Of a DNA stretch of 48,357 nt, positions 177 through 21,442 are shown in pieces; positions within the stretch are counted from its first letter, which is position 1; each line of letters starts with the position of its first letter. Location: positions 1 to 48,357 of the IMG/VR virus record IMGVR_UViG_3300020233_000109. One strand, given 5' to 3'. The DNA comes from a virus. The notes under the pieces were generated by a model, which saw nothing but the letters and a program-made list of their open reading frames with translations, had not been told where the DNA came from and made no database searches. A program made the position numbers and the translations under genes.

Positions 177-1466
177 ATGACCAGAATTCCTGCTAACGTA
201 TCGGGGCCTATCGGGTTAAGTCCGGCAGTGATTGTGCCTAATCTAGGGTCCAGTACCGCCGATGTCGTCAATACCACTCTGGCTAACCGTAATCAATCCG
301 ACCAGTTGTTATCTACCTACCTGCAAACTTCCTCCAACGAGAGAATTGCCAACCAGGGTATTGGGTTGGAGGATCGGAAGATAGCCGCTCAAATGTTTGA
401 AGTGAGACTGCAAGACACTGCCAAACGTGATGATTTAGCTTCTCGTCTGGATTATAATCAATATGTTACCGATTTGAATTATCGACAGAATGATCGTATT
501 CTAGGGGAAGAAGAATTCAGGTTCAGAGCTAACCGGAAAGATAACACCGCTAAATTTCAAACTTTAGTTACCGAGATGGATAAGTTAGGAATGGTTAACT
601 GGTCTAAATATGTTCTGGGGCAGCTTGCCACCTTACAGGCTTCCAAGACTGCCGGATTAGACAAAAAAAATGCTCTGGAATTGAGAACGAAAATGTTTCA
701 GGACATCCAACAGCAAAGCGCGTTGGACAAGAAAGAGACTCAGATGACTTCCAGTCAAGTAACTGGAATGAATTCGCTTATTACTCAGGGAAATCCCAGT
801 GATATTCTTCGTTCTATCGAGGCCAATCCCTTCTTCAATACTTTTAATTCCCCCGACGAAATGATTAGTCAGATTCAGGCAGGAAAACTTGATCCCATCC
901 AATTACGGATTGCAGGTAAGGTAGCTGTCGAGGGGGCTACTACTTTAGTTAAACGGATGCGAGATGAGTTAGGACCTGAAAAAACAAATAATTTGAGAGA
1001 CGCCTGGAATCTGTTAATTACTTCCGGTAAATTCAAAATAGCGGATTTCTCCTCACTAGGTAATGAGGATTTGATTACTATCAATGAGATATTATCTCGT
1101 AAATTACCGGAGTTTAGTTCCTTATTCATCGGAGATAAGAAATCATTTATCAATGATTTAATTAAATGGGGACCGGGGTTTGATGCTCTTACTAAATTAA
1201 CTCAGGTAGGTTCCAATATTTACCAGGTTCCTGTGGGTAATGAGTCCCCCGTGGTTATCTCAACTGTGCAGGTAACCAGAGGAGGCATACAGGGTACGTC
1301 CAAAGAAAAATTAGCCAGTCAGATAGAGACGGAAGCTATGAATCCCGATGGAACTTTTGATACAGATAAGGTGGAAGAAATATTACAACGTCAACTGGAT
1401 TTAATATTTGGACCAGATGGGACTCTTAGCGATCACCCTCTGGCTCCCCTGTATAGTAATCGTTAA
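177..1466 (+). CDS. Hypothetical virion protein, 429 aa, helix-rich
   Basis: No family recognised. The 429-residue product has a Thr/Pro/Gly-rich first 30 residues and then long amphipathic helical stretches (about 45-250) full of Gln, Lys and Leu, with a more globular C-terminal third. It lies 27 bases after the internal-virion-like gene and directly before three further late genes on the same strand, so a structural or ejected-protein role is inferred from context. The Shine-Dalgarno is weak (GAGAA, 171 region). It could equally be a tail-assembly chaperone or minor virion component. Confidence 0.8.
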   Translation: MTRIPANVSGPIGLSPAVIVPNLGSSTADVVNTTLANRNQSDQLLSTYLQTSSNERIANQGIGLEDRKIAAQMFEVRLQDTAKRDDLASRLDYNQYVTDLNYRQNDRILGEEEFRFRANRKDNTAKFQTLVTEMDKLGMVNWSKYVLGQLATLQASKTAGLDKKNALELRTKMFQDIQQQSALDKKETQMTSSQVTGMNSLITQGNPSDILRSIEANPFFNTFNSPDEMISQIQAGKLDPIQLRIAGKVAVEGATTLVKRMRDELGPEKTNNLRDAWNLLITSGKFKIADFSSLGNEDLITINEILSRKLPEFSSLFIGDKKSFINDLIKWGPGFDALTKLTQVGSNIYQVPVGNESPVVISTVQVTRGGIQGTSKEKLASQIETEAMNPDGTFDTDKVEEILQRQLDLIFGPDGTLSDHPLAPLYSNR

Positions 1467-14825: not shown

Positions 14826-14865
14826 AAAAGGTCTAAGCCCTAGTGTGAAAGGCTTAGAACCTTTT
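14826..14865 (-). terminator. Terminator of the small-RNA unit
   Basis: Stem AAAAGG-TCTAAGCC (14826-14839) with GGCTTAGA-A-CCTTTT (14851-14865), one bulged base, followed on the minus strand by TTTTATTTTT. The hairpin also has a run of T on the other strand, so it may act in both directions. It lies 30 bases after the 3' end of the tRNA-like sequence. Confidence 0.8.
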
Positions 14866-14878
14866 ATACAGGCCACTC

Positions 14879-14895
14879 CAAAAACCTGTTTTTAT
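14879..14895. repeat. 17-bp direct repeat flanking the tRNA-like gene, copy 1
   Basis: CAAAAACCTGTTTTTAT, identical to 15091-15107. Its core AAAAAC-CT-GTTTTT is itself palindromic. This copy touches the CCA end of the tRNA-like sequence. Confidence 0.85.
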
Positions 14896-15032
14896 GGCGG
14901 TGTAGGCAGGATTCTAACCTACATTTCGTTCGTCCGTTTTAACGCCAACTCCCGGCAGCGTTAAACATAGACCACAATCGCCGGGCCAATAACGAATCAG
15001 TTGTCAGCGTCTAACATTTGCGCCACCACACC
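14895..15032 (-). tRNA. tRNA-like gene, 138 nt, encoded CCA, with large internal insertion
   Basis: Reading leftward from 15032: acceptor GGTGTGG, TG, a D-arm GCG..CGC with an 11-base loop ending GTTAGA, then at the other end a T-arm GTAGG-TTAGAAT-CCTGC, acceptor partner CTACACC (seven pairs, one G-U), discriminator G and a genomically encoded CCA. Between D- and T-arms are about 95 bases rather than 30-50. GACAA/TTGGC can form a stem with one mismatch enclosing a 52-base loop that starts CT (U33 conserved) and holds a 6-bp CCCGGC/GCCGGG hairpin. An alternative 8-bp stem TTTAACGC/GCGTTAAA competes with it. It may be a class II tRNA with a small intron-like insertion, or a non-decoding tRNA mimic. 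The anticodon cannot be assigned. Confidence 0.6.
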
Positions 15033-15039
15033 TTATTCA

Positions 15040-15087
15040 CTTATCAAAAAGACCTGACCGGCCTACATCGCACAAACCGGCCAGGCT
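15040..15087 (-). other. GC-rich hairpin with T-run upstream of the tRNA-like gene
   Basis: On the minus strand CCTGGCC pairs with GGTCAGG around a 19-base loop and is followed by TCTTTTT, terminator-like, between the sigma-70 promoter and the tRNA-like sequence. It could reduce readthrough or serve as an RNA processing structure. Confidence 0.45.
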
Positions 15088-15090
15088 CTA

Positions 15091-15107
15091 CAAAAACCTG
15101 TTTTTAT
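15091..15107. repeat. 17-bp direct repeat flanking the tRNA-like gene, copy 2
   Basis: Same 17 bases as 14879-14895, 212 bases apart; the two copies bracket the tRNA-like gene and the terminator-like hairpin. Confidence 0.85.
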
Positions 15108-15209: not shown

Positions 15210-15238
15210 AGTATAATGTAATAATAACTATTTGTCAA
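15210..15238 (-). promoter_or_regulatory. Consensus sigma-70 promoter for the small-RNA unit
   Basis: On the minus strand TTGACA (15238-15233), 17-base spacer, TATACT (15215-15210). Directly upstream lie three 10-bp A/T repeats (AATTTATAAA, 15241-15270) that look like an UP element. No protein gene lies between this promoter and the terminator at 14826; the transcript would carry a structured leader, with CTTG-TTTT-CAAG and two GGCAGATCG copies, and then the tRNA-like sequence. Confidence 0.8.
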
Positions 15239-19612: not shown

Positions 19613-19816
19613 TTATTTTTTCCTCTTTTTTTTCGAGAGAGAGAGTGTAAGAAATATTTTTTTATATTCGGGGTTGATAAGAAACATTTTAATATCTTCC
19701 GGGGTTAACATGATAATAAAATCTTCTACTTCTTGAAAATTTTGAGCCGATTGTTGCATGAGTACTTCACAGTGGTAAAGTTGTCGTATCAATTCAAATT
19801 TAGTCTTTTTTTTCAT
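19613..19816 (-). CDS. Small hypothetical helical protein, 67 aa
   Basis: ATG 19816 overlaps the stop of the E1-like gene (ATGA), so it is translationally coupled to it. Product is helical, Lys-rich at both ends, with EVEDFIIMLTPEDIKMFLIN in the middle. No family recognised. Coupling to the E1-like gene suggests it belongs to the same functional unit. Confidence 0.6.
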   Translation of the reverse strand: MKKKTKFELIRQLYHCEVLMQQSAQNFQEVEDFIIMLTPEDIKMFLINPEYKKIFLTLSLSKKKRKK

Positions 19817-20499
19817 TCGTTGTTACCTTGATTAGGAGAATTAACCACGTCAAATAAAATATTCATACCCAATAAACTCATTAAAATATCTTTGGGAACC
19901 CAGAATTCACGCAGGAATTTAGTAAACTGCACTACCATAAAACTGGCGGTAATGGTAGCACAGTAAAGAGTCATTCTCGCCCCACACATTAAATTTTCTC
20001 CTTCGGAATTAGGAAACCAGGTATCCTCCCAGTATTTTCTTGTCTCATAATCATAAGCGGTAATAATCCGCAGGGTTTCACCCCCCACCCTACCGTCCAC
20101 AAAGAATGATCTTTCATCTTCTGTTTGTTTAAATATATTTTTCCTTGCAGTCATACAATCCACACAACAAAAAACGTGTGTCCCCTTATCACAACTGCGG
20201 AAAGGACGATAGTGTGTAGCAATCTCCACAGTCGGATTTATTCTCAAACAATCGTTTTTGGTTACTATTACCTTTTTTTGACCTTGAGAAACATCAGGAT
20301 AACCCTGACTGGCCGTATTGGAAATAGTTACATCATCCATATCCACCAGAGTCAGATGAGGTACACCCGCAGCAGTTAGTTGGAGGGCTACTTGTCGCCC
20401 TACCGACCCTACCCCCACCACCAGTGCATGAACCTGTTCTATCTTTTCTCTGGGAACCAATAAGGACTGCCGACTATACCGGTCTAAATCTTCTTCCAT
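19813..20499 (-). CDS. ThiF/E1-like ubiquitin-activating adenylyltransferase
   Basis: 228 residues. Starts RYSRQ (8-ish), the conserved Arg/Gln N-terminal element, then the nucleotide loop VVGVGSVGRQ (G29-x-G31-x-x-G34), LVDMDDV (D53, D55), N61 and Q65, K75/K76 and the Asp in CCVDCMTARK (D114). Family knowledge: these enzymes adenylate the C-terminus of a ubiquitin-like protein and usually carry it as a thioester; Cys172 in NLMCGARM is a candidate. No zinc-binding CxxC pair of ThiF/MoeB is evident, which fits the stripped-down E1-like group. Lies downstream of the JAB gene with a 31-base gap. Confidence 0.85.
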   Translation of the reverse strand: MEEDLDRYSRQSLLVPREKIEQVHALVVGVGSVGRQVALQLTAAGVPHLTLVDMDDVTISNTASQGYPDVSQGQKKVIVTKNDCLRINPTVEIATHYRPFRSCDKGTHVFCCVDCMTARKNIFKQTEDERSFFVDGRVGGETLRIITAYDYETRKYWEDTWFPNSEGENLMCGARMTLYCATITASFMVVQFTKFLREFWVPKDILMSLLGMNILFDVVNSPNQGNNE

Positions 20500-20530: not shown

Positions 20531-21442
20531 TTAACAATTATCTAACAAACCTTTATCCCAATAAACCTCAATCAGGTCTATTTTATCTTCATGGGTTTTA
20601 TTTTGAAAAAGACCCTGCATCTTGGGAGGTAAACTTTTTATAATATATTTAACATCTTCAATACTACCCTGTCCCGATAAAACTCTATCAAGAATATCAT
20701 CCCTGGTATCCGACGATTGATTGTTTACTTCATCCGTAAACTCTTCTGAAAAGCTACCGGGATAACCGGAGAGATAACCATTGTCTATATCGTAGGGATC
20801 GTAGGGATCGTAGGTTTGAACTTCGGAAGGAGGTAAGAAAGAAGACCCTTTAACTATTTCATATTTTTTAGAGATATTCTCCTGATAGTGAGTAGTCCAT
20901 TCTTTACTATTACTCCCCGAAAAAGACGTTTGATAATCTACTTCTACTTCTATCTTATGGGAAAGACCCGGTCCCGCCGTAAAGGTTAAACGGGTATAAA
21001 CATCATCATTTCTGGCTAGAATAAACATTATGGCCCAACTACATCTGCCAAATACCTGTAAAAAGGTTTCTTCATCCGTTGAAGAGGGACTAGGACTATT
21101 ACCCGGATGAGTATGAATAAAAATTCGACCAAATTGCTCAGGTTCTCTGTCCTGATCTACCATCTGATTAAAATAATCCCTAATACCCTCATCATCAAAA
21201 TCTACCCCCCCACAAGAAACTTTCTGTTTAGGCAAAATCAAATCCTCTACCAAAAGGAGATTATCCCTGGAGGTAATACCAAACCCCCCTACTTCCATTT
21301 CAGACCGGTTCCGCATGAACAACAACTTGCCCCAAGCATAGGGAGTAAACCGGAGAACAGGATTGGGTTTTCCCTTTAACTCATCAACCCAATAAGGAGG
21401 GGGAGACGACCGAATATTATTCTGCTCTTGTTCTTTTACCAT
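20531..21442 (-). CDS. JAMM/JAB (MPN) metallopeptidase, deubiquitinase-like
   Basis: 303 residues. The catalytic set is complete: E50 in EMEVGGFG, then H110-T-H112, seven residues, S120 and D123 (IHTHPGNSPSPSSTD). This is the JAMM zinc-peptidase signature. Preceding strands (LRFTPYAWGKLLFM, 30-43) fit the MPN fold. The C-terminal 120 residues are acidic, with a YDPYDPYDIDNG repeat encoded by a 9-bp DNA repeat. Expected to process or remove the ubiquitin-like protein encoded at 22919-23143. AAAGG precedes ATG 21442. Confidence 0.9.
   Translation of the reverse strand: MVKEQEQNNIRSSPPPYWVDELKGKPNPVLRFTPYAWGKLLFMRNRSEMEVGGFGITSRDNLLLVEDLILPKQKVSCGGVDFDDEGIRDYFNQMVDQDREPEQFGRIFIHTHPGNSPSPSSTDEETFLQVFGRCSWAIMFILARNDDVYTRLTFTAGPGLSHKIEVEVDYQTSFSGSNSKEWTTHYQENISKKYEIVKGSSFLPPSEVQTYDPYDPYDIDNGYLSGYPGSFSEEFTDEVNNQSSDTRDDILDRVLSGQGSIEDVKYIIKSLPPKMQGLFQNKTHEDKIDLIEVYWDKGLLDNC

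Follow-up and report, generated by a model that had tools for sequence, protein, structure and literature searches.

The window analysed here, a stretch of 48,357 bases from an IMG/VR record of a phage with PolA, PD-(D/E)XK exonuclease and terminase genes, contains a 138-nt tRNA-like RNA that fits the plan of a family of RNAs in which a pseudoknot very probably takes the place of the decoding arm. The family is widespread and mostly unannotated in phages, including SPP1, phi3T, SPO1-like phages and phages of lactic acid bacteria, and is without an Rfam family. Read as a whole from the sequences, it would consist of non-decoding tRNA-like RNAs with a pseudoknotted insert, matured by the host, often leucylatable, and acting as mimics that occupy a host factor; this complete statement has about an even chance of being correct.

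The tRNA-like RNA of the window

The RNA extends from 15032 to 14895 on the minus strand, from G1 to an encoded CCA, with the layout GGTGTGG-TG-GCGCAAATGTTAGACGC-(84 nt)-GTAGGTTAGAATCCTGC-CTACACC-G-CCA. A preliminary description of this DNA had reported a tRNA-like gene of this length with acceptor stem, D arm, T arm, discriminator and CCA, and all of these are found on the minus strand, including a discriminator G73 and an acceptor stem (GGTGTGG/CTACACC) that pairs at seven of seven positions, one of them G-U. In the elbow, the usual pair between the D and T loops, G19-C56, is replaced by U19-A56, a paired change. The insert contains both the 6-bp G/C hairpin (CCCGGC/GCCGGG) and the alternative stem (GTTTAACGC/GCGTTAAA) of that description. 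The features of the region are:

15210..15238, minus strand: sigma-70-like promoter TTGACA-17-TATACT, a consensus match only
15091..15107, minus strand: direct repeat ATAAAAACAGGTTTTTG, copy 2, upstream
15052..15086, minus strand: strong terminator-like hairpin between promoter and tRNA-like RNA
14895..15032, minus strand: whole tRNA-like RNA, 138 nt, G1 to encoded CCA
15026..15032, minus strand: acceptor stem, 5' strand GGTGTGG; the acceptor covaries among relatives
15007..15023, minus strand: D arm GCG-CAAATGTTAGA-CGC, D loop of tRNA-Leu type with U19 replacing G19; the family D stem covaries
14999..15003, minus strand: putative pseudoknot helix S1, 5' strand CAACT; family-supported, not significant in this copy alone
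14991..14996, minus strand: putative pseudoknot helix S2, 5' strand TTCGTT; p 0.12 alone, family position test
14979..14985, minus strand: inner hairpin, 5' strand CCCGGCG; p 0.02
14951..14957, minus strand: inner hairpin, 3' strand TGCCGGG, directly abutting the S1 3' strand
14946..14950, minus strand: S1, 3' strand AGTTG, pairing with CAACT
14925..14930, minus strand: S2, 3' strand AACGAA; the T stem follows exactly 2 nt on (A47, U48), as in the family
14906..14922, minus strand: T arm GTAGG-TTAGAAT-CCTGC, A56 replacing C56
14899..14905, minus strand: acceptor stem, 3' strand CTACACC, pairing with GGTGTGG
14895..14898, minus strand: discriminator G73 and encoded CCA
14879..14895, minus strand: direct repeat ATAAAAACAGGTTTTTG, copy 1, directly after the CCA
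14832..14858, minus strand: downstream terminator-like hairpin

The Rfam tRNA model (RF00005) matches the window copy over its full model length at 23.3 bits, below the gathering score of 29, and skips 80 nt where the model has 18; the E-value is 0.018 for 531 bases against 4,227 families and about 4e-4 when recomputed for one family over the whole window. ARAGORN makes no call on this copy by default, nor with introns at the normal threshold, and with introns at relaxed thresholds it returns hundreds of meaningless matches, that is, noise only. No further tRNA was called anywhere in the window, no tmRNA was detected there, and no tag reading frame was recognised. The acceptor, D and T stems and the tertiary bases expected of a tRNA are present, as are U48 and a helix strand ending 2 nt before the T stem (AACGAA-AU-GUAGG).

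Taken by itself, the region folds with an unremarkable free energy (z -0.63); the evidence for the window RNA is comparative. When the tRNA body alone is imposed, the window sequence itself picks S2 and the inner hairpin at -38.9 kcal/mol (free fold, -42.0). Neither S1 (CAACT/AGTTG, p 0.33) nor S2 (TTCGTT/AACGAA, p 0.12) is significant alone; the copy fits the pseudoknot plan of the family described below, and the claim made for it rests on that plan. The subthreshold RF00005 score and the nonsignificant pseudoknot could also point to a decayed, functionless tRNA gene in this phage, but decay is very improbable in view of how well this copy agrees with the living family: its acceptor (7/7), D and T stems are intact, CCA is present, U19-A56 has changed as a pair, and both A47-U48 and the spacing of 2 nt are there.

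The gene had also been credited with its own promoter and terminator. A consensus promoter and terminator-like sites do exist; however, that the promoter belongs to the RNA is doubtful because it lies about 180 nt upstream and the strong terminator-like hairpin stands between them. Two exact copies of ATAAAAACAGGTTTTTG bracket this upstream hairpin and the tRNA-like RNA. Elsewhere in the window, a ThiF (E1-like) protein adjoins a weak JAB-domain match (19813-20499 and 20531-21442, minus strand), the layout of a ubiquitin-like system.

Relatives and the conserved tRNA body

The window DNA has no match among phages, its terminase has no protein match, and single-protein searches with the exonuclease, DNA polymerase and terminase of the window phage recovered no relatives. 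A pattern of the D and T loops alone, in the U19-A56 form, led to one other viral contig (L002), whose acceptor (GAACAGG/CCTGTTC, 7/7) and T stem are perfectly paired, neither being demanded by the pattern; ARAGORN calls this element no more than it does the window copy. With normal G19-C56 loops, the pattern matched at least 120 stretches of viral contigs (the canonical-loop set, 103 distinct among the matches listed), and a loop pattern of the SPP1 type likewise matched at least 120 (112 distinct among the matches listed). Searches by blastn with the L002 and SPP1 elements as queries reached mostly unannotated stretches of SPP1, SPO1-like phages (SPG24, BSP10, SBSphiJ1, Goe7), phi3T, and phages of Leuconostoc, Weissella, Lacticaseibacillus, Brochothrix, Enterococcus and Paenibacillus; in annotated phage records, the place of the element is either blank or labelled as a hypothetical protein. 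A composite blastn query yielded ordinary tRNA pieces or single-arm matches only.

In chromosomes the pattern is rare, with 101 matches in 257 billion bases, and 35 matched places have at least six of seven acceptor pairs. Several chromosomal matches are ordinary tRNA-Leu genes with another tRNA behind them or small insertions, and at least one (L184) lies near a phage capsid gene. Two loci, L133 (Saccharibacteria) and L222, look like genuine tRNA-Leu genes whose anticodon loop contains a small extra hairpin. Three others, L131, L148 and L152, from metagenome-assembled genomes (MAGs) of Terriglobia, Chlorobiaceae and Desulfobulbus, have an 8-bp acceptor and a common insert (GAAGGCGAAACACGTAT before the T stem) unlike the rest.

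In Rfam 15, the tested loci are covered by no family except the generic tRNA model, which a few members pass, some relatives scoring above its curated cut-off. The ROOL and GOLLD models (RF03087, RF02032) did not match the element itself, although the positive control of the GOLLD search also stayed silent.

Pairing of the acceptor and T stems was not required by the search patterns. In the canonical-loop set, acceptor positions are paired in 86-101 of the 103 distinct matches listed (unfiltered), versus shuffled means of 50-84, and the 78 listed matches with a complete 7/7 acceptor have 39 different acceptor sequences among them; the D stem covaries (C-G, T-A, A-T), and so does the T stem. 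Among the SPP1-type matches listed, the figures are 105-111 of 112 versus about 45-58 after shuffling at six acceptor positions, the remaining one being nearly invariant, with 60 acceptor sequences and a sixth T pair in 110 of 112. Shuffling deals the partners anew and leaves kinship between sequences in place; shared descent is nevertheless an unlikely cause of the pairing because the acceptor sequences are so many and so different. Two bases that the pattern did not demand are also frequent among the matches listed: U48 (76 of 78 canonical-loop and 112 of 112 SPP1-type) and A73 (63 of 78 canonical-loop). On this comparative evidence, the acceptor, D and T stems are kept across the family, and the tertiary set U8-A14, A15-U48, G18-G19 and C56 occurs in most relatives (U19-A56 in the window). 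Compensatory change in the acceptor and T stems, whose absence from relatives the preliminary description had named as grounds for giving up the gene, is thus strong.

The insert in place of the anticodon arm

Among the 103 canonical-loop matches listed, an anticodon arm with a 5-bp stem and a 7-nt loop at its normal place is no commoner than in shuffled inserts. With this arm absent across the family and the acceptor and T stems changing in compensation, the tRNA mimic proposed earlier is supported.

In its place, a helix, S2, is strongly enriched, with exactly 2 nt between the end of its 3' strand and the T stem (z -8.7, 77 inserts of the canonical-loop matches listed). The same enrichment holds for the SPP1-type matches listed (z -16.5, 105 inserts); their T stem is of 6 bp, 2 nt again separate it from S2, and S2 shows a compensatory change from C-G to A-T. 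A first pseudoknot search, with the helix loosely placed, gave only a weak signal, similar to that of nested hairpins; the signal became clear once S2 was anchored by its 3' end at a set distance from the T stem. A second helix, S1, crosses the fixed S2 with combined z-scores of -3.8 and -3.4 in the canonical-loop set and -5.6 in the SPP1-type set, and a hairpin inside the insert is enriched too when S2 is held fixed. The SPP1 insert, for example, has S1 CCTC/GAGG and S2 GTACGGG/CCCGTAC, and that of Pd_22F has S1 CGGGTG/CACCCG and S2 GCTCC/GGAGC; in some members no S1 was found. These observations suggest that S2 and an often present, crossing S1 form an H-type pseudoknot, frequently with an inner hairpin, that replaces the anticodon and variable arms, and the structure as a whole is held with high confidence. 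In class II tRNA terms, S1 is read here as corresponding to the anticodon stem and S2 to the variable arm, except that the loop of S1 now holds the 5' strand of S2.

The preliminary description had considered an intron-containing class II tRNA. About 45 nt beyond the length of a class II tRNA and the intact acceptor, D and T arms would suit an ordinary tRNA with a short, spliced intron, but an anticodon arm at its proper place does no better than chance across the family. Moreover, the insert is a family-wide structured domain with its own conserved helix position, its 3' helix fixed 2 nt before the T stem, so that an intron is scarcely credible. The unusual split-like arm, another of the earlier suggestions, was right in part, in that the anticodon and variable arms look fused into the pseudoknot.

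One insert motif, AGTCG.AAGGCAAAGCTGGA...CCAGCGTA, is common to the L002 element (L002:492-613) and a Sphingomonas element (L144), and in both of them ACGCT/AGCGT could pair in competition with the D stem. On the contig of L002, an unannotated, structured-looking stretch of about 450 nt upstream of the element (L005:10440-10930) contains CCTCCAACCA and has no Rfam match. SPP1 (L127:1625-1670) and PM1 (L238:2004-2049) carry a second, mini tRNA-like piece of about 45 nt, ACGGAC...CGGGTTCAATTCCCGG..GTCCGT, which is without an anticodon arm and 93% conserved between the two phages.

Genome position, leucine identity and possible function

Members occupy intergenic sites, for the most part on the coding strand; canonical tRNAs occur within 3 kb in 34 of 88 cases, and many members stand alone in short gaps. 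Neighbours in the first group are mixed (head, packaging, replication and HNH genes). The SPP1-type members found in temperate phages of Gram-positive hosts lie between an ArpU/RinA/Alt-type late activator and the terminase, and 10 of 12 upstream genes tested belong to PHROG transcription regulators. Such a position would suit a cis-acting leader in phage operons, the late operon among them, through which transcription or translation of the downstream genes is controlled. However, other members and the window copy are near quite different genes or in tRNA clusters, and a leader has no need of a complete tRNA body; this explanation is improbable.

A somewhat better case, yet still an unlikely one, can be made for the tRNA body as a maturation or stability chassis, or as an RNase P site punctuating phage transcripts in the manner of mascRNA in MALAT1, the functional part being the pseudoknot or a neighbouring RNA. 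In its favour, insert sequences diverge between members while the body stays constant, elements are intergenic and mostly on the coding strand, the element of SPO1-like phages sits inside a noncoding stretch of about 900 nt in a tRNA cluster, and in L266 a ROOL RNA (667-1248, plus strand, 260.7 bits) ends 14 nt before an SPP1-type element (1262-1384, plus strand). Against it, a ROOL RNA is near the SPP1-type element in only one of 40 records, many members are solitary, and A73 and U48 are kept beyond what RNase P would be expected to need. In Bacillus phage BSP10 (L233:844-1754) and in L129 (2718-3745), the element is surrounded by about 900-1000 nt of noncoding sequence with many possible helices and further T-arm-like pieces, which may be a large RNA not yet described.

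Leucine identity in E. coli depends on A73, A15-U48, G18G19, A20a and contacts between the D and T loops, and a tRNA-Leu deprived of its anticodon and variable arms is still charged by E. coli LeuRS (PMC9976931). Most family members among the matches listed have this set; because the search pattern asked for G18, G19, A15 and A20a, part of the sample's likeness to tRNA-Leu comes from the pattern itself, which left A73 and U48 free. The window copy departs from the set in G73 and U19-A56 and, with G73, is probably a weaker LeuRS candidate.

In the mimic reading, host RNase P and 3' processing enzymes would cut the RNA, which carries its CCA, from phage transcripts. LeuRS should charge most members, since the identity set is present and the enzyme accepts tRNA-Leu lacking the anticodon and variable arms (PMC9976931). 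Being unable to read codons, the RNA would act as a tRNA mimic and may occupy a host tRNA-handling factor such as LeuRS, EF-Tu, a tRNA-modifying enzyme or a tRNA-targeting defence nuclease, and the fast-changing pseudoknot could provide partner specificity or nuclease resistance. This decoy step is tentative, with odds clearly short of even. In SPP1-type members, G55 and a 13-bp acceptor/T stack would be expected to weaken EF-Tu binding, a point against the mimic explanation.

Several known RNAs resemble the element in part. Bacterial tRNA-Leu (class II, RF00005) shares the acceptor, the GGAAUUGGUAGACGC-type D loop, the T arm, A15-U48 and mostly A73, whereas the phage element has no anticodon arm, carries a pseudoknotted insert of 56-90 nt and scores below or near the model cut-off. 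In the tRNA-like structures of plant RNA viruses (TYMV type), it is the acceptor end, at the 3' terminus of the genomic RNA, that a pseudoknot forms. These too are viral RNAs that imitate tRNA with the help of a pseudoknot, but the phage element is a separate gene in DNA phages, with a normal acceptor and a pseudoknot that replaces the decoding arm. Like tmRNA, it has a tRNA body with pseudoknots and no anticodon; unlike tmRNA, it is about 110-140 nt long, has an intact D stem, is of the leucine and not the alanine type, and has no recognised tag frame. The mascRNA and menRNA of MALAT1 are also non-decoding tRNA-like RNAs, with a possible RNase P site, but are eukaryotic, about 60 nt long and without a pseudoknot. 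ROOL and GOLLD are structured noncoding RNAs near phage tRNA genes that differ in length (several hundred nt) and structure. Finally, allo-tRNAs and irregular tRNAs have noncanonical stems, as does the phage element, and changed acceptor/T lengths, some being unusable in translation, but their review mentions neither a pseudoknot nor phages (PMC7609411).

No description of such an RNA was found in the openly licensed literature; overlap with the 224 bacterial RNA motifs of a 2017 survey was checked via Rfam only. There is a real chance that the element, a new variant on the theme of tRNA-like structures, is a class of its own. That it is a large, undescribed RNA class of DNA phages, with leucine-charged bodies in most lineages and a rapidly evolving pseudoknot that unites the anticodon and variable arms, directed against host defences or host translation, is a possibility put at somewhat under one half.

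The familiar cases of viral tRNA mimicry come from plant RNA viruses. The present finding is a tRNA-shaped RNA that lacks a decoding arm and occurs in hundreds of DNA phages, among them laboratory phages of B. subtilis in which it had escaped annotation. It means that part of the weak or failed tRNA calls made on phage genomes represent a real class of RNA, and phage non-decoding tRNAs can now be tested as decoys, charged mimics or RNA processing modules.
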